Shown here piece after piece: positions 3,045 to 11,175 of a stretch of 64,000 nucleotides of DNA. A program made the translations under genes and the position numbers. The notes beneath the pieces are model-generated. The model was not told the origin of the DNA and ran no database searches. It saw only the letters and a program-made list of their open reading frames with translations. This DNA comes from Dysidea avara (taxonomy: Eukaryota; Porifera; Demospongiae; Dictyoceratida; Dysideidae), in NCBI RefSeq assembly GCF_963678975.1, contig NC_089281.1, forward strand, positions 310,001 through 374,000. Direction: 5' to 3'. Numbering within the stretch: the stretch's first letter is position 1; each line of letters starts with the position of its first letter.

Positions 3045-3129
3045 TCATACTTACTAAGAGTCTGATAACTATGTTTCCGTAATTATAAAGTATAACATTC
3101 TATGTACAACTAGCAGCTAAGCTAGCACA

Positions 3130-3687
3130 TTAAACATTAAAACACTTGACTACCCCAGCACCTGGGCTGGTCCATTAAACATTAAAACACCTGACTACCC
3201 CAGCATACATTAAACCTTAAATTACTTGACTACCCCAGCACCTAGACTGGTACATTAAACATTAAAAACACTTGACTACCCCAGCACCTGGGCTGGTACA
3301 CTAAAACACTTGACTACCCCAGCACCTAGACTGGTACATCAACACACTTGACTACCCCAGCACCTGGGCTGGTACATTAAAACACTTGACTACCCCAGCA
3401 CCTGGGCTGGTACACTAAAACACTTGACTACCCCAGCACCTAGGCTGGTACATTAAAAACACTTGACTACCCCAGCACCTGGGCTGGTACATTAAAACAC
3501 TTGACTACCCCAGCACCTAGACTGGTACATTAAACATTAGGAACACTTGACTACCCCAGCACCTGGGCTGGTACACTAAAACACTTGACTACACCAGCAC
3601 CTAGGTTGGTACATAAAAAAAAAAAAAAACACTTGCCTACCCCAGCACCTGGGCTGGTACATTAAAACACTTGACTACCCCAGCACC
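3130..3687. repeat. Minisatellite inside the retrotransposon, left part
   Basis: About 14 imperfect units of roughly 37-50 bp, each with CTTGACTACCCCAGCACC followed by TGGGCTGGTACATTAAA or close variants. The array lies between the recombinase and pol ORFs and continues at 8813-8880 after the inserted DNA transposon. The units are near-identical and have no unique spacers, so it is not a CRISPR array. Confidence 0.85.
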
Positions 3688-3705
3688 CAGAGGAGGATGG
3701 ACACG
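3688..3705 (+). repeat. Left terminal inverted repeat of the DNA transposon
   Basis: 18 bp, CAGAGGAGGATGGACACG, an exact inverse of 8795-8812. The next bases diverge (CACACGTGAG here, ATATAAGCGC at the other end), so the repeat is short. The 191 bp between it and the ATG at 3897 must hold the promoter; I see no clear TATA box. Confidence 0.9.
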
Positions 3706-3896
3706 CACACGTGAGCGCATCTATTTCAATGGTAAACGCTATAGAAGCTTTAATCAACTTAATTTACATACCATTCTAAACTATTCGTCATGACTTACTG
3801 ATATTTTCGATCAGCCCCATTCATCCCCTATGATCTGAACGCGTAAATTCACCCTTAAAATTTACAGATCACGTGTGCAATAGACGCGCGTGAGTA

Positions 3897-4284
3897 ATGG
3901 CTGAGCAGCATGGCGCGGAAGTTTGTACTCCCAAAGGCTCGCCCGAAGGCTTGACAAAGAAGCGTGACAGAAGTTCTCCAACACTTCAAACGCCTTATAG
4001 AGAGTCAAAACGGATTCCTCTAAGAGAGTTGGATCAGAATAGGGTGGAAAATAGCGAGGAGATAGGTACATCTCAGCCACGACCACGTGTTTTATCAGCA
4101 AGCTTCAGCAAAAGAAGCAAAAGATTCAATCCAAAGGAAAGTTGGACGGATGCTGAATTAGGAGCTCTGACAGAATTCGTATTGTTTCATACGAAGGGTA
4201 GTAGCTGGCCCTCTCACAAGCAGGAAGATTTCTGGAGTGGTGCCAGTCAATGGGTACAATCAAGATCAGGACATTGCAGGAGTG
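3897..4284 (+). CDS. Transposase-like gene, exon 1 (Myb/SANT start)
   Basis: Encodes the basic, Ser/Pro-rich N-terminus and the first two helices of the Myb/SANT domain (Trp at residues 83, 104, 113 and 119). Ends at AGTG|GTAAGT in phase 1. Confidence 0.8.
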
Positions 4285-7200
4285 GTAAGTGTTATTGTAA
4301 AGACAATGCATTATGTAAATCTTGTATTAGCAAATGGTTGCAGAGCTAAAGTAACTGGATGGTTGGCAAAGCACTATAGCTCTCCACAAGATGCTGAAGT
4401 GCAATACTGTAATCAAGTCATCCCGCCAGCTGATGAGGCAACAGATGCAAGCAAGCAAAACCTGTCTTCTGGTGTACAGAGAGGTGGCACTGATTCTTTC
4501 ACGCTTATTGTCCAGTTATTTACTGAGCTAGCTATGGAGGATCAATCGAAAGTCTTGTCGGAGTTGTTTGAATTGTATATGTCATCACGTTACTTACATG
4601 TTCCTGAAGATTTCTTGGTCCATGCAACCAATGCTATGGTGCAACTGAAACAGAATGGACGCTCTAATGTCTTATACAACTTAGCAAAAGGTATAGGGAC
4701 ATTAAGAGAAGATGGCAGTGACTCTAGATTTCCAAGCAAGCGAATGTCAATGGGCTTGGTGGAATATGCTGCAGACTTTTTTGTTGCTGACAATTTGCAA
4801 AAGGTATAGATTTTATGATATTTGACGTGTATACATAGTGTCGTACATGTTGCACACCAGGTAACATGTCCTCCTGATTATCGATTGTGGCAGCAAACCA
4901 TGTACAGTCAGTTCGGACAAAAGTGGTCAAGGTTGCAGCAGGGACCCATGTGGAATGTAGTTTTTTCTGCACAAGCGTCTGAAGTAGGTGAAGGTATACC
5001 ATCTGATGTGGATCCAGAAGATTCACATTGTCGAAGTACAATGAAGGTAAGAATCTACGTAAATATCCTGGTGAATACTGTTATATTCTGTAGGCCTTGG
5101 TTAACATTCCAGCCATTTCAGACAGGTCATTGCGCCGAGATATTGCCTCCAGTAATATACATCTTGGTTCTCAAATCCAAGTACATAATGTTGTCGTTTA
5201 TGATGATCGAGTATTAGTAATATTATTCCTAGGAAACAGTTCTTGATGATGCAGCTAAAGCACACCCGGATGCATGGTGGTGGCTGAAGGCTGATGGCTG
5301 TGATATCTCAAAAGGTCTCAAAGAGTCTGTAAAGCAACAATGGAGCGGGGATGTTGACTTAAATGATGGAAGCTTACAAAAGCAGTTTGCTGAATACAAG
5401 GTTCGACTAGGAATAGCTGAGAAAGTTGGAATAGAGAAAGAGAAGGTTACGGAAGATCTTGATGCTGTCTTAGAAGATTTAGTCAAAGATCTAGACTTTA
5501 TTCATTCAGGTATGCCAATTATTGAAATTGAATTATAGTAATATGAGCATTATGTATAGAATTGAAGAAGTACAATGATACTTATTCTGAAAAATTACAG
5601 TCTGACAAGTATAGTGACAAAGACATGATCAATCTTAGCTGGAAAATCAAGGAACTCGGGGATTTGAATGGCATGGGAAGGTTGTTGCGTACAGAGATAG
5701 ATAGATTATTCAGACGAATGAAGGCTGGGGAGTGCTTATGGGAGCAGGAAAATATTCCTAGGAGTATGGCAGAGATTCAGAAGAACTTGACCACTTTTAT
5801 CAAAGGAATAACCCGTCACCAACGCATACCAGCAAGTCATGTTTTGGTGTTCATGATTAGCAATGAGGAACGAAGAAATAAACCTTATGCAATACCTGTA
5901 CAGTGCATACCGTACAAAAGTTTAACTGATTTGAAAGTCCGAGAGCTTGCTAACAAAGTCATACAAGAGATGACCAGCAGAAAGATGAAAGTAGCAGGTA
6001 GCTATAGGTTGTTTGAATGTAGTAATGATATAGTCCTAATATCATAGGGTTTACTACAGACGGAGAGTGGAATTCTTTACGTACTAAAGGAAATCTCCAA
6101 CCACTGTCTGTCTTTCAGATTCTCAGCAACGTTAGGAGACAATACGCACATAAGAAGCAAAAGACAATGATTGAAATGCTTACTCCGTTGTGTAAGTGAA
6201 TTTTATGTATGCTTGTACATTGCTATGTCAATGAATGAACAGGCAATACAAATGGAATTTTCACTGCTCGTGTTCCTAACAATGCCGTTAGTCAAAACCT
6301 ACTTAGTGAAATACATGGATGGATTACAGCTGGTGCAACCATGAATGATGTGATAGAACGTTTAAGGTTGAGGACTGTACCAACTGGTTATGCAATTCAT
6401 AATTGGACAAATGGTACTGATATTACACATCTGTCCTGTAAATACCATTCTCTGCTAGGGAAGGATGAAAGCCTATTAGACAAACTTCGATCAATCTTGG
6501 CCCAGCTCGAGTATAAGTACCAGATAGATTTGTGGCATTCCAAGGGTGTTCCTTTCAAGGATCATCTATATGTGCCAGAGGTACACCCAAACACGGGACT
6601 AAGATTTTGTGAGCGGGAAGATGACGCTCATGTCTTAAAGGTATAAATACATGTTTCAACAATAATGTACGTAGTCAAGCTAAGTGCATTAATTATTATC
6701 CTCAGCTTTGTATATAGTACTATATATATATGTATATATGCATGCACAGATTCATCATTTTCTGAATAGCGTATTGGACACAGCCTTAGAGTTGGAGGAA
6801 ATGCTGATATTCAATTGGAGAGATTCGTGGAAGCCGTCCATGATTCGTCTGCTGGACTAACCTACACAGCTCTCTCAGGAATCCGCAAGCAATCTGTTGA
6901 AGACGTGGAGAGATTATTCAGCAAATCATTAATAAAATGGATGGAAAGCAAAGGATATAGTACTGAGGCCAAGCATATTGAAGTAGTCTGTAATTGGAGA
7001 CGTGCATGTGATGAAAGAGGGCTGACAGACCAGCAGCGCAGTAAGTTCAACAATGATTTCCTCGACTACATCCTTGATGATCTAATGCCATGGCATCGAA
7101 AACCACATCATAGAGATTTCAGTCTCCTAGAAGTCAACAGGTATAAGTACATATTATACCAGATAGTGCTATTGCTTTATTTCACAGGAGCATTGCAGGA

Positions 7201-7798
7201 GTGAGAGGCTTTAGCAGAGAGACTATTGTAGCCCTAGCTGCTAATATTGAGTCCCGTGAATGGAGGCGTGGATATCTTATAGAGAAGAATTTACCACCAG
7301 AACATCCCCGTGCAAGCACGACTGATGACGTCGAATGTTTATTTAGTGTATTGCGTGACAGTGTTGGAAAAGATTTTACACTGAAAGAGGTTAGGTTAAC
7401 TGTATTATATATTATTCGACATGTGCATTACATTAATTACTTACATTAATTACTCTGCATTAATGGTATTACAGGTTATGTTTGGATGGAGGAAAGTTGT
7501 ACTTGAATTTGCTAAAAGGATCGACCCTGACTTACCATTTTATTACTTCACATCATCCCACAGCCGTTTTTATGAGGGAGAGATGCCTGAGTTCAACAGG
7601 AAAGGAAACAAAAGTCAGAAGCCCAAGCGAATGCCAAAGTATGAATTGCTTGGATCGGACAGCAGGGTTACACTAGCAGTTCGCAATTCTACTTCAATTC
7701 GGACTGCATTCCATAACTTGCCTGTAAAGCTACCTCCTCCACCCGGCACAATATATCAATTAGCACATGATCATTCATATACAGCAAATAAAAAATGA
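3897..7798 (+). CDS. Transposase-like protein with Myb/SANT domain (11 exons, 1,090 aa)
   Basis: Exons read from splice sites and phase: 3897-4284, 4346-4803, 4861-5046, 5094-5180, 5233-5509, 5560-5997, 6048-6191, 6243-6640, 6770-7140, 7188-7389, 7475-7798. All junctions keep frame and no stop interrupts them. Residues about 81-140 form a Myb/SANT-like DNA-binding domain (ESWTDAEL...FW...RS..CRSAKV), preceded by a basic N-terminus. The remaining ~900 residues look like an RNase H-fold transposase with a large insertion. Candidate acidic residues are D394 in LKADGCDI, D616 in FTTDGE and E965 in TTDDVECLFSVLRD; this triad is inference. The ATG at 3897 opens the first frame after the terminal repeat. 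Exon 2 uses the acceptor CAGAG rather than CAG to keep frame. An AATAAA overlaps the stop. A cellular gene caught between the repeats is less likely, given the element's structure. Confidence 0.8.
5233..5997 (+). CDS. Transposase-like gene, exons 5-6 (first candidate catalytic Asp)
   Basis: Exons 5233-5509 and 5560-5997 are separated by a 50-nt intron. Exon 5 carries WWWLKADGCDI, whose Asp (residue 394) fits the first acidic residue on a beta strand of an RNase H-fold transposase, then a charged, helix-rich stretch. Exon 6 is a Lys/Arg/Glu-rich region ending in the phase that leads into FTTDGE in exon 7. Confidence 0.75.
7188..7389 (+). CDS. Transposase-like gene, exon 10 (candidate catalytic Glu)
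   Basis: Encodes the block HPRASTTDDVECLFSVLRD. A conserved-looking acidic residue followed by an F..LR helix is the usual form of the last catalytic block in P- and hAT-like transposases, so E965 is my candidate. Phase 2 in, phase 0 out. Confidence 0.75.
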
Positions 7799-7821
7799 TT
7801 ACATAGTCATTCATGTGATTG

Positions 7822-8742
7822 TTAATTTCGTGCACAACTGCTTTGTGTTACAGTTTTGGACCATGATCCATTTTTGGTGATTGCGATGCCAGCATATAAG
7901 CCTGGAGGTTTGAAGTACACAATATATCTGATCCAGTCAAAAAATACTTTGATGATCTTGTCGTCGTCAATTGCCTTGTGTACATCAGGTAGAGCTTCTT
8001 TCACTACATACCCAATCCTCTCCCACTGTTTGTCTGCTTTACACATAAAAGCAATCGCATGGGAATCAATCGGATTGCTTGGCTCTTTCTCAAGCTTGAC
8101 AGGAACTGTCTCACCAGTGCTTTTCTTCTGCTTGGCAAGAGCAAGCAGCTCTTGATAGCGATGTTCCTTGGTTGCTCCAATGCATTTAAATATAACTGTG
8201 TGAGTAATACTTGGAACTAAGTCTTCACTATCACTTATCTCCTCTGATCCAGATTCATCAGTATTGTGCTGATCGTCCTGTGGCAATGATGCTGCACTGG
8301 AGTTGTCATCTTCATCTTCAGCTCCATCTACCCACACCCAATCCCAGATAACAAAAACTTGTTTGTCTTCGAATAGAGTGTACGAGGACACATTGATGGA
8401 TTTATTAAACTCTTCTTTCTGAAATAAAAAATATTGTTCATAGTTTTATGTAAAGCTAGCTAGTTACATGGATTAATGTATCAGTACACATATATAAACC
8501 ACACTAACTTCAATTAAAAACCCACTGTCATTGCTGACAGGGAACTTTGCGATGGCTGGAAGAGGATGATTCAATAAATCTATGTTACGAGCGAAGCCAT
8601 CAAACACGTGCACAGTCCCGTCCACATCTTCCCAGCGAAACTTTACTTCCCTCAATGGAACCTTGAAAACAGGGAAGCTTGGAACTACATATCGGTGCAA
8701 ATCTCCTTTCGATAGTATCTCCATGTATACGTAATCCTCCAT
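7822..8742 (-). CDS. HIRAN-domain protein carried by the DNA transposon (2 exons, 276 aa)
   Basis: Exon 1 is 8742-8509 (ATG at 8742) and exon 2 is 8418-7822, joined in phase 0 through a GTTAGT...TTTCAG intron of 90 nt. Residues 1-78 form an unrecognised N-terminal domain. Residues about 109-150 are a very acidic Ser/Asp/Glu linker. Residues about 152-265 match a HIRAN domain, with the core pattern VKLEKEPSNPIDSHAIAF and the following IGYV block. In HLTF and Rad5, HIRAN binds 3' single-stranded DNA ends; in bacteria it occurs alone or with helicases. No helicase or nuclease is present here. A role in handling transposition intermediates or recruiting repair is inference. The gene faces the transposase, ends 23 bp from its stop, and starts 70 bp inside the right end of the element. 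Confidence 0.8.
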
Positions 8743-8794
8743 TTTGGAATTCTAAATATGCAATTAAGGCAATAATTTTGTGTGGCGCTTATAT

Positions 8795-8812
8795 CGTGTC
8801 CATCCTCCTCTG
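8795..8812 (-). repeat. Right terminal inverted repeat of the DNA transposon
   Basis: 18 bp, exact inverse of 3688-3705. It is followed at once by the 9-bp target duplication CCCAGCACC (8813-8821). Confidence 0.9.
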
Positions 8813-8880
8813 CCCAGCACCTAGGCTGGTACATCACATTAAGCATTAAAACACTTGACCACCCCTACATCTGGGCTGAA
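8813..8880. repeat. Minisatellite inside the retrotransposon, right part
   Basis: One and a half degenerate units of the 3130-3687 array (CCCAGCACCTAGGCTGGTAC, then a diverged unit), left on the far side of the transposon insertion. A T-rich low-complexity run follows at about 8886-8945. Confidence 0.8.
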
Positions 8881-9069: not shown

Positions 9070-11175
9070 CTATGGTATGCGCAGTGCCAACAAGTTAGTG
9101 TTGGGGTAACCTACAAACAAGCTGGAGCCTCTTCTTCCAGGAATTATAGTGAAGGTAGCTGGTGTCAGGGTACGGGTTTCTGCAATGAAGCTGGCTGGTT
9201 TGCCTCCTTCTGGGAATAACATAGGCCAGAACGGCGCTGATGGCCATTCTGGCAATATCAGAGTTGCTGCTGCCTTGTACTTCAACAGGTGCCTGATAAC
9301 ACGTGGCACCAAGTTTACAGGCGGACAAAGCCAGTTGTTGTCCATTTGCCAGTTGCAAGTGAAAGCATCCACATCCTCTGTGCCTGGGTTCCAAAACCTA
9401 GAATTAAAACGTGGCAGCTGTGTATTGTAATAGCTTGCAAAGCGATCGACTGTGTGAGGGCCCCACACTCTGTCCAATTCCATGAAGGAAACATGATCCA
9501 GGCTCCAATCATCATAGTCAACAAGCCGACTGAGGTAATCAGCGACCTCGTTATCCCGCCTTGGTATCCACTCTGGCTCAACGTGGACGCAGTGTGCTAG
9601 CGAAGTCGAAAATATAGCAAGTGCTTCATTCTGCAGGTCAGGTTTCTTACTCCCTACTGACAGTATACGTACTACATTCTGATTATCAGTGAACCACCTA
9701 ACCCGCTCATTAGCCAACTTAGCTGCAAGGGCTTCCAGCACTAGTCTAACTGCTCTTAGCTCACGCCATGTGGAGCTCCTTTTGGATTCATCTGGCAGCC
9801 ATGTACCCTGTGCTATGTGACACCCATGTTGCACTGTGTAACCTGCATAACCAGAGTCACTAGCATCAGTGAACACAACCCTTACTGCTGAGGGTCCCAT
9901 CCATATATTATGCCCATTGAACTTTTCAATTTCGTTATACCAGAACCCGAGTTCCCCTCTTACATGGTCGGATAGTGGCAGGTACTGTAGCCATGACATG
10001 CGTGTGTTCAATAAGGTGTACAGTCCCCTGGTCATTAACCTGGTCACTGGACCCAACCCTGGGGACATAGAAATTATCTTACCTGTAATACTAGCTAGGG
10101 CCTTAGCAGGGAGGGAGCACTTGCCTATTGCATCTTTAAGTAAGGCTTGCAGTGCATTAATTTTTGCCTGTGGGACTGTTATCTTGCCTTGCTCCAGGTC
10201 CAGCTCAAAGCCAAGCCAGGCGCACTGTTGGGATGGTGTCCAATTACACTTTGTATGGTTTGTGACAAAACCTGCTCTACTAAGGTCCTCCTGGACTAGT
10301 ACACTAGCAATCTGTGCCTCCTTTTTTCCACTTACTGCCACTATCCCATCATCTAAATAGACAACTGCCCGCAAGCCTTGGGCCCTCCAGTGCCGAACCA
10401 GAGGTCTCAACAATTTGGTGAATAGGTAGCATGCAGTGGCTAATCCAAAAGGTAACACACAAAAGACATAAAATTGCTGTTTCCTGCCCTGACCCCAGGA
10501 AAACCCCAGAAATTTCCAGTGTTGCCTATGGATATCTACGTGGTGGTACCCCGATTTGAAGTCAAAAGAAAACATATAGTCCCCTTGTTGAAACATTGAC
10601 ATAGCCACCCTTAGATCTTCGTACTTAAATTTAGCCTTCAGCAGAAATTGGTTAAGATAACGCAGGTTCAGGACTAGTCTCAACTTACCAGAGCTGTTGG
10701 ACATTACTGAGAGTGGGCTACATATGTGAGGTTTCTGTGTGACTGTTTGGATGCAGCGGTTCTGTAGCAATTCTGCAACTGCCTCAGTGACAAAGCTTGG
10801 GTTATTGGTAGCCTACTTCTGGTTCTTAGCTATGAATGGCGGTGGCAGAGAAAGGAGAGGGAGCTTATACCCCTCCTCAATGCACTCAATCACTGGATTG
10901 GAGGCATTCAACACTGTTCTCCAGAATTCTATCGAGCCTTTAAGCCTACCTTGCACATCGACTATTTGTTCCGAGTTCTGTTCTAGCTCCCAAAAACGTG
11001 TGGGGCCCGCCATGTCACCTTCTGTGACCTCCACCATGGTATAGCTCTTTCGTAAACCCTTGTCACCATCATGAGTGCCATTACTTAGGGAACCCACCTG
11101 CATCCTGGGCCCACCTGGCTGGACTATGGGCTGTGATACTACACTCACTCTGAACTCATCATCCACAGTTTCCAA
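9070..11175 (-). pseudogene. DIRS-order pol: RT, RNase H and methyltransferase-like region
   Basis: One long minus-strand frame with a single in-frame TAG at 10815-10813, after IAKNQK. Upstream is the typical N-terminal stretch (GRLKGSIEFW). Downstream are RT blocks, including FSFDFKSGYHHV and the catalytic YLDD. RNase H follows with FTDAS, WRELRA, FTDNQN and NEVADYLS, giving the D-E-D-D residues. The C-terminus has VDRFAS, FNSRFW and a PP motif, resembling the phage Dam-like methyltransferase region of DIRS and PAT elements, though the DPPY signature is degenerate. The frame overlaps the end of gag in the +1 register, so translation would have needed a frameshift or splicing. The premature stop makes it a pseudogene, but it is otherwise well preserved. 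Confidence 0.9.

Follow-up and report, generated by a model that had tools for sequence, protein, structure and literature searches.

The window, i.e. the whole 64-kb stretch of DNA analysed here, contains what is, on strong support, a real, intact and complete transposon with two genes (Table 1). It is bounded by exact 18-bp reverse-complement ends, as in the original prediction, and the motif of these terminal inverted repeats (TIRs) has no further match at up to three mismatches across the 64-kb window (shuffle mean 0.01). The TIR core CAGAGGAGG is common to the families F1 to F4 and to several single loci. The host site of the insertion is a tandem array of ~38-bp units, and the 9-mer CCCAGCACC that flanks the element as an exact target site duplication (TSD) occurs in six of the seven unit copies listed. 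Because the units already carry this 9-mer, the predicted TSD length of 9 bp, present at the window element, is not provable from this locus alone and was established through other copies. Joining the flanks of the element restores a normal array unit.

Table 1 Features of the transposon, with positions in the window
Feature	Positions	Strand	Basis
Left TSD CCCAGCACC	3679..3687	.	exact 9-bp identity with right TSD; sibling copies
Left TIR CAGAGGAGGATGGACACG	3688..3705	+	exact inverted-repeat comparison; motif search versus shuffles
Left AGCGC motif in subterminal position, separated from the TIR by 8 bp; candidate transposase site	3714..3718	+	
Transposase exon 1, putative Myb/SANT-like N-terminus (weak label)	3897..4284	+	11-exon model; sibling models
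Transposase exon 2	4346..4803	+	11-exon model; sibling models
Transposase exon 3	4861..5046	+	11-exon model; sibling models
Transposase exon 4	5094..5180	+	11-exon model; sibling models
Transposase exon 5, carries D394	5233..5509	+	11-exon model; profile alignment with P
Transposase exon 6, RNase H strands following a presumed helical insertion; start of the PF21787 match (residues 554-624)	5560..5997	+	11-exon model; Pfam
Transposase exon 7, carries D616	6048..6191	+	11-exon model; profile alignment with P
Transposase exon 8, revised	6243..6413	+	sibling models
Predicted in-frame GT-AG intron, 45 bp, taken as coding in the original prediction	6414..6458	+	sibling models
Transposase exon 9, revised, carries D771xxH774	6459..6640	+	sibling models; profile alignment with P
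Transposase exon 10	6770..7140	+	11-exon model; sibling models
Transposase exon 11, carries E950 (formerly E965)	7188..7389	+	gene models; C-terminal block comparison
Transposase exon 12, including stop codon	7475..7798	+	11-exon model; sibling models
HIRAN-domain gene exon 2, including stop codon, contains HIRAN match	7822..8418	-	frame, sibling loci and Pfam
HIRAN-domain gene exon 1	8509..8742	-	frame and sibling loci
Right AGCGC motif in subterminal position, separated from the TIR by 5 bp; candidate transposase site	8785..8789	-	
Right TIR	8795..8812	-	exact inverted-repeat comparison; motif search versus shuffles
Right TSD CCCAGCACC	8813..8821	.	exact 9-bp identity with left TSD; sibling copies

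The first gene encodes the transposase. Its frame, predicted as 11 exons and 1,090 codons, was reproduced as a protein of 1090 amino acid residues without a stop and with all 10 introns of the GT-AG type, but the gene models of sibling copies place one additional in-frame intron of 45 bp in former exon 8, with GT-AG borders in the window. They point to a revised transposase of probably 12 exons and 1075 aa, in which E965 becomes E950. Twelve gene models were built in total, five of which were used for the PF21787 test and six for the HIRAN test described below. The Myb/SANT character ascribed to the N-terminus was recovered weakly: Myb models matched one of three N-terminal pieces (E 0.057 and 0.1); the piece from the window protein had no match.

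The second gene, which was absent from the original prediction, lies on the minus strand convergent with the transposase gene and encodes a protein of 276 aa. It is recognisable at 11 of 11 sibling loci, with stops in four of them, and the two genes are conserved together among the siblings. The Pfam domain HIRAN (PF08797) was found in all six members tested out of the 12 models (best E 4.9e-7). In the window element the match falls below the cut-off, at 19.5 versus 24.7 bits. All 12 comparisons across the two genes gave a pN much lower than pS, and dN/dS amounted to 0.09 (F1-F2) and 0.12 (F1-F4), values that are uncertain since dS is near 2. Judged from these substitution patterns, both genes are under purifying selection.

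Such selection could also be expected of a domesticated host gene pair for which TIRs and TSD are incidental, a reading that is barely conceivable in view of the other copies in the same 550.8-Mb genome. The TIR pattern has 2274 genome matches versus 18 for a reversed control. Ten short copies that were examined share these ends and have TSDs, and many more seem likely from the number of TIR matches. Within the sibling family F2, two copies differ by two mismatches and one gap over 5151 aligned columns (99.8%) and sit between different exact TSDs, and the window's own family has a second, left-truncated copy on C8 that is 99.9% identical over 4010 columns. These near-identical dispersed copies, which argue against a domesticated pair, suggest recent mobility in the host. 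The flanking 9-mers of the copies agree with the original prediction: among the 27 insertions for which both ends could be placed, 20 have an exact 9-bp TSD, its sequence differing between insertions, and 24 match at 8/9 or better, the remaining three at 7/9, 2/9 and 1/9. A 10-bp TSD was absent from all 26 insertions checked, this number being the 27 minus copy F2_C7b, whose TSD was scored separately as 9/9. Copies with one end not located stood outside the count (F3_C8, F4_C14, F4_C7, the truncated copy on C8, L035, L036, L038, L040, L041 and L042). A preference for target sites ending in CC, seen at the window element and two F2 copies, was dropped once further copies were read.

The RNase H core of the predicted transposase affiliates distantly with the P element transposases. 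The Pfam family TNP-like RNase H (PF21787), which represents the N-terminal half of the P-type RNase H domain, matched five of five members below its cut-off; the window protein reached 23.0 and 24.2 bits versus the curated cut-off of 24.6, with an E-value of 4.6e-5 that none of the five bettered. In a profile-profile comparison the core scored 48.2 against P (maximum of 100 shuffles 22.1), the core profile having been prepared by cutting out two presumed insertions and choosing blocks with the P layout in mind. In this alignment D394, D616 and D771xxH774 match, in the same order, the two aspartates and the DxxH motif of P RNase H. The uncut 731-residue region scored 39.1 (shuffle maximum 25.1), and with the P profile reduced to five sequences the core still scored 41.8. 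A full-length comparison with hhalign gave a diffuse alignment at probability 31. E950 falls on the glutamate of P in a C-terminal block that scored 11.4 versus a shuffle maximum of 17.3, the P template here consisting of two near-identical sequences. Within the originally proposed triad D394, D616 and E965, both aspartates are thus aligned with those of P, and the glutamate, now E950, is a candidate by motif only. The original failure to match the protein to any named superfamily is borne out at curated cut-offs, yet a distant match to P is reproducible.

Several features distinguish the transposase from its P counterparts. Its spacings are 222 residues for D-D and 155 for D-DxxH, compared with 73 and 36 recorded for Drosophila P (PMC8230255), and by this spacing the core would hold two extra insertions relative to P. 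The DxxH-E distance of 179 residues is close to the 192 of Drosophila P (PMC8230255). Pfam searches yielded no THAP domain in the window protein or three N-terminal pieces, and no GTP-binding domain in the window protein or the five members; between DxxH and E the window protein has a stretch of P-like length. No credible match was obtained among solved structures, and the models predicted for two contiguous pieces of the window protein, with mean pLDDT of 36.6 and 43.3, were too poor to use.

Other superfamilies were weighed as well, MULE and hAT by profile comparison and Pfam, KDZ by Pfam. The original prediction had noted that Mutator-like and a few other superfamilies make 9-bp duplications, a length recorded for Mutator (PMC2774946), and C/DxxH is described for MuDR (PMC9587614). 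Nonetheless, the core scored 20.2 against a profile of 10 MULE segments from the same genome, below the shuffle maximum of 23.2, the MULE family PF10551 had no Pfam match in the window protein or the five members, and among the MULE matches listed none coincides with the family loci when compared by eye; a Mutator-like element is highly improbable. An assignment to hAT or to the Zisupton-type KDZ elements is very unlikely as well. C/DxxH is shared by hAT (PMC9587614), duplications of 8 bp and 7 bp are given for Zisupton and Kyakuja (PMC12730594), and against hAT the core scored 21.2, slightly above all 60 shuffles (maximum 19.9). This score is half of that against P (41.8 to 48.2), even with P cut to five sequences. 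Neither hAT nor KDZ (PF18758) had a Pfam match in the window protein or the five members, and although KDZ is present in this genome with 39 matches, none of them, compared by eye, coincides with the family loci. P itself scored 23.9 against hAT (shuffle maximum 19.2), and because both the core and P slightly exceed all hAT shuffles, part of the P signal may represent general RNase H kinship.

Within the P relationship, the rank of the lineage has to be weighed. It is quite plausible, if short of even chances, that the element simply belongs to the P superfamily, in an aberrant subgroup or in one that is already catalogued. The homology of the RNase H core including D, D and DxxH, the near-P distance between DxxH and E (PMC8230255) and the variation of duplication length within superfamilies, e.g. 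from 5 to 8 bp in hAT (PMC12730594), would fit a subgroup. Conversely, a TSD of 9 rather than 8 bp, the lack of THAP and GTP-binding-domain matches, the sub-threshold RNase H match, the extra insertions and the second gene speak for a separate lineage, as does the far higher score of PF21787 matches elsewhere in the same genome, which reach 93.8 bits.

Searches beyond this genome yielded no relatives in viral contigs, with a single protein or an alignment as query, or in prokaryotic genome contigs, both being collections other than eukaryotic genomes. NCBIfam gave no match either, and a PADLOC match of one member (E 0.004) was regarded as chance. Among the open-access papers listed, judged by titles and the starts of abstracts, none describes the lineage. 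HIRAN domain, transposase and transposon are mentioned together in two papers, of which by title neither deals with such an element. Judged from this literature, the lineage is large and apparently undescribed; it is read here as P-related, possibly with the rank of a superfamily, and as having a presumed accessory protein with a HIRAN domain.

Overall, the element is very probably a DNA transposon that moves autonomously by cut and paste and belongs to a lineage of several families, its large DD-[DxxH]-E transposase having an RNase H core with distant homology to that of P and a HIRAN gene lying convergent to the transposase gene. The transposase would bind the TIRs and the asymmetrically spaced AGCGC motifs and then excise the element, whose 3' ends would be joined to a new target at points 9 bp from each other. 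The HIRAN protein might, as the most speculative step, bind the 3' ends exposed at the cut element or at the donor break and in this way aid transposition or repair. A further-reaching reading, which we consider tentative and rather doubtful, is an undescribed superfamily sister to P with 9-bp duplications that requires the HIRAN protein to capture exposed 3' ends while the element is excised or integrated; it would be the first transposon to employ a HIRAN domain. If true, a sister lineage that has the catalytic core of P but differs in its ends, TSD length, DNA-binding module and accessory gene would reveal which of these traits are ancestral. With a conserved HIRAN partner, a role of 3'-end-binding proteins in transposition could be tested directly, and the lineage could help to trace the evolution of the DNA-moving enzymes of the P group.

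Compared with known systems, the element shares the 9-bp duplication and the DxxH motif with Mutator but no Pfam or profile similarity. hAT elements have a CAG-type terminus, which resembles the ends found here, and they share the D-D-[C/D]xxH-E type and a faint profile signal, whereas duplication length and Pfam separate hAT and KDZ from the element and the hAT score is half that of P. Harbinger elements carry two genes, as does the element, which may also share a Myb/SANT-like module with PIF/Harbinger. In contrast, Harbinger and its relatives are listed with 0-, 2- or 3-bp duplications (PMC12730594), no Harbinger Pfam match was found, and the putative Myb module is located here within the transposase. 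P-type transposases, from which THAP9 and other host genes derive, are described as unusual in their GTP dependence and long 3' overhangs (PMC7776569). The element differs from P in its TSD, which in P is 8 bp (PMC7776569), in the missing THAP and GTP-binding matches, in residue spacing and in its HIRAN gene. It resembles P and THAP9 in the aligned RNase H core and in the dispersed short copies that share the element ends, and the unequal spacing of AGCGC at its two ends recalls the unequal spacing of the sites described for P (PMC7776569).

The original prediction of a DNA transposon was reproduced at the locus, including its 18-bp inverted ends, its 9-bp target duplication and its gene of 1,090 codons in 11 exons. 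At up to three mismatches, the end motif has no further match in the window (shuffles yield 0.01). The 9-mer of the target duplication is contained in six of the seven listed unit copies of the tandem array into which the transposon inserted, and the window locus by itself is therefore only suggestive of a duplication. The flanks of the element, when joined, give back an ordinary array unit, and the sibling units provide a picture of the empty site. A retroelement with a 580-residue open frame (RVT_1 reverse transcriptase match, 7.4e-21) adjoins the transposon.

Within the assembly (550.8 Mb, 108 contigs) there are three exact occurrences of the end sequence, two in the window and one in a copy on contig C8 (L001/L004). 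This copy belongs to the window's own family, with 99.9% identity over 4010 columns, and lacks the left 1115 bp. The transposase protein as query gave 137 exon matches in the genome, which were grouped by place and score into the families F1 (the window element), F2 (eight copies), F3 (six) and F4 (three), plus additional single loci. The full comparison covered two F2 copies only, which differ by two mismatches and one gap over 5151 shared columns and are flanked by different exact 9-bp duplications, while for the remaining groupings the criterion was agreement in search score. The termini of F2, F3 and F4 copies were read, as were those of ten short elements, the latter being all facing pairs of perfect terminal inverted repeats (TIRs) of less than 600 bp found among the matches listed. 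Similarity of the short copies (171 to 550 bp) to the large elements is concentrated at the ends, as would be expected of non-autonomous copies mobilised by the same enzyme. The pattern CAGAGGAGGNTGGACACG, at up to two mismatches, occurs 1132 + 1142 times versus 10 + 8 for the reversed control. Two loci, L035 and L036, represent a divergent sibling lineage with the motifs kept (L036 is 47% identical to F1 in A1, the alignment of transposase family members); a search for their ends at up to four mismatches gave only one weak candidate for L035 and none for L036.

Exact 9-bp duplications flank 20 of the 27 insertions with both ends located (26 scored together and one F2 copy, F2_C7b, scored separately). 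Agreement reaches 8 or 9 of 9 positions in 24 insertions and amounts to 7/9, 2/9 and 1/9 in the other three; the chance expectation for a single exact 9-mer is ~4e-6. A 10-bp match was found in none of the 26 insertions scored together, and no fixed motif within the duplications was seen among the scored insertions.

By spliced alignment the window exons were recovered unchanged, and F2 showed a parallel structure. An intron lies within the originally predicted eighth exon in the models of L043, L045 and L036, and an extra intron was predicted accordingly in the window gene. At this point L046 reads through an in-frame stretch of dissimilar sequence, which was taken out by hand ahead of alignment A1. 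With the predicted intron removed, the window transposase has 1075 residues, including D394, D616, D771xxH774 and E950. The Myb/SANT label given to it draws on weak matches in one of three N-terminal pieces. The sibling loci vary in quality: transposase models of L043, L045, L035 and L036 are stop-free, and the other seven sibling loci carry 1 to 8 stops. In all 12 pairwise comparisons (four families, two genes) pN is far below pS; dS is finite in two of them and near 2 there, giving dN/dS values of 0.09 and 0.12.

A second gene, convergent with the first, encodes a HIRAN-domain protein. On the strand opposite the transposase, a copy is recognisable just past the transposase gene end in all 11 sibling loci (with stops in four), and the gene is taken to belong to the transposon. 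Pfam HIRAN matched six of six members submitted, with 4.9e-7 as the best E-value; the match in the window copy of the gene falls under the cut-off. The HIRAN domain of HLTF binds single-stranded DNA at its 3' ends, and the encoded protein may handle exposed 3' ends of the transposon or donor.

Features of the transposon and its surroundings in the window
Feature	Position	Strand	Description
Tandem array	3127-3691		~38-bp units; insertion target
Target duplication			CCCAGCACC; inside tandem array, units ~38 bp
DNA transposon	3688-8812		18-bp ends
Extra transposase intron (predicted)	6414-6458		45 bp, in-frame, GT-AG borders; at the point where the L043/L045/L036 models have an intron
Second gene	8742-8509 + 8418-7822	minus	276 residues, HIRAN domain
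Retroelement	9070-10812	minus	RVT_1 match

By analogy with enzymes of this class, the transposase would bind both ends, excise the element and insert it with a 9-bp stagger. A candidate binding site is the motif AGCGC. In the window element it is 8 bp inward of the left TIR and 5 bp inward of the right one; it appears again at F2 ends among the matches listed, and falls within the first 36 bp of the short copies at six of ten left and six of ten right ends.

The sole recurrent Pfam match of the transposase, below cut-off in all five members submitted, was PF21787, which covers the N-terminal half of the RNase H domain in P-type transposases. PF21787 itself has 151 matches in the D. avara genome (up to 93.8 bits), where MULE (150 matches) and KDZ (39) transposase domains co-occur with it. 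A P profile was built from segments of twelve PF21787 loci, reduced to eleven when a duplicate was dropped; several of those left are near-identical. The transposase core, with two presumed insertions cut out, scored 48.2 against this profile; 100 column shuffles reached at most 22.1 and reversal gave 16.7. The alignment placed D394, D616 and DxxH on corresponding P residues. Since both presumed insertions had been excised by choice, the test was rerun on one contiguous block (36.5; shuffle maximum 17.2) and on the uncut region (39.1; maximum 25.1). Cutting the P profile to five sequences gave 41.8. Against ten MULE segments the core scored 20.2, under the shuffle maximum of 23.2; against five hAT segments it scored 21.2, slightly over the maximum of 60 shuffles (19.9), and the P profile itself scored 23.9 against hAT (maximum 19.2). 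The block around E950 had no significant similarity to P (11.4; shuffle maximum 17.3).

No description of the lineage was found among the open-access titles and abstract openings listed by literature searches. The lineage probably works like a P element, and there is a real chance that it constitutes a superfamily of its own. According to PMC7776569, P elements have 8-bp duplications as well as THAP and GTP-binding domains, whereas the duplication here is 9 bp and neither domain was matched; the lineage is therefore not to be filed as a P element. The residue spacings are 222, 155 and 179 in the window transposase, in contrast to 73, 36 and 192 in Drosophila P, going by the residue numbers of PMC8230255. 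The unequal spacing of the candidate AGCGC sites resembles that of the sites of the P element (PMC7776569).
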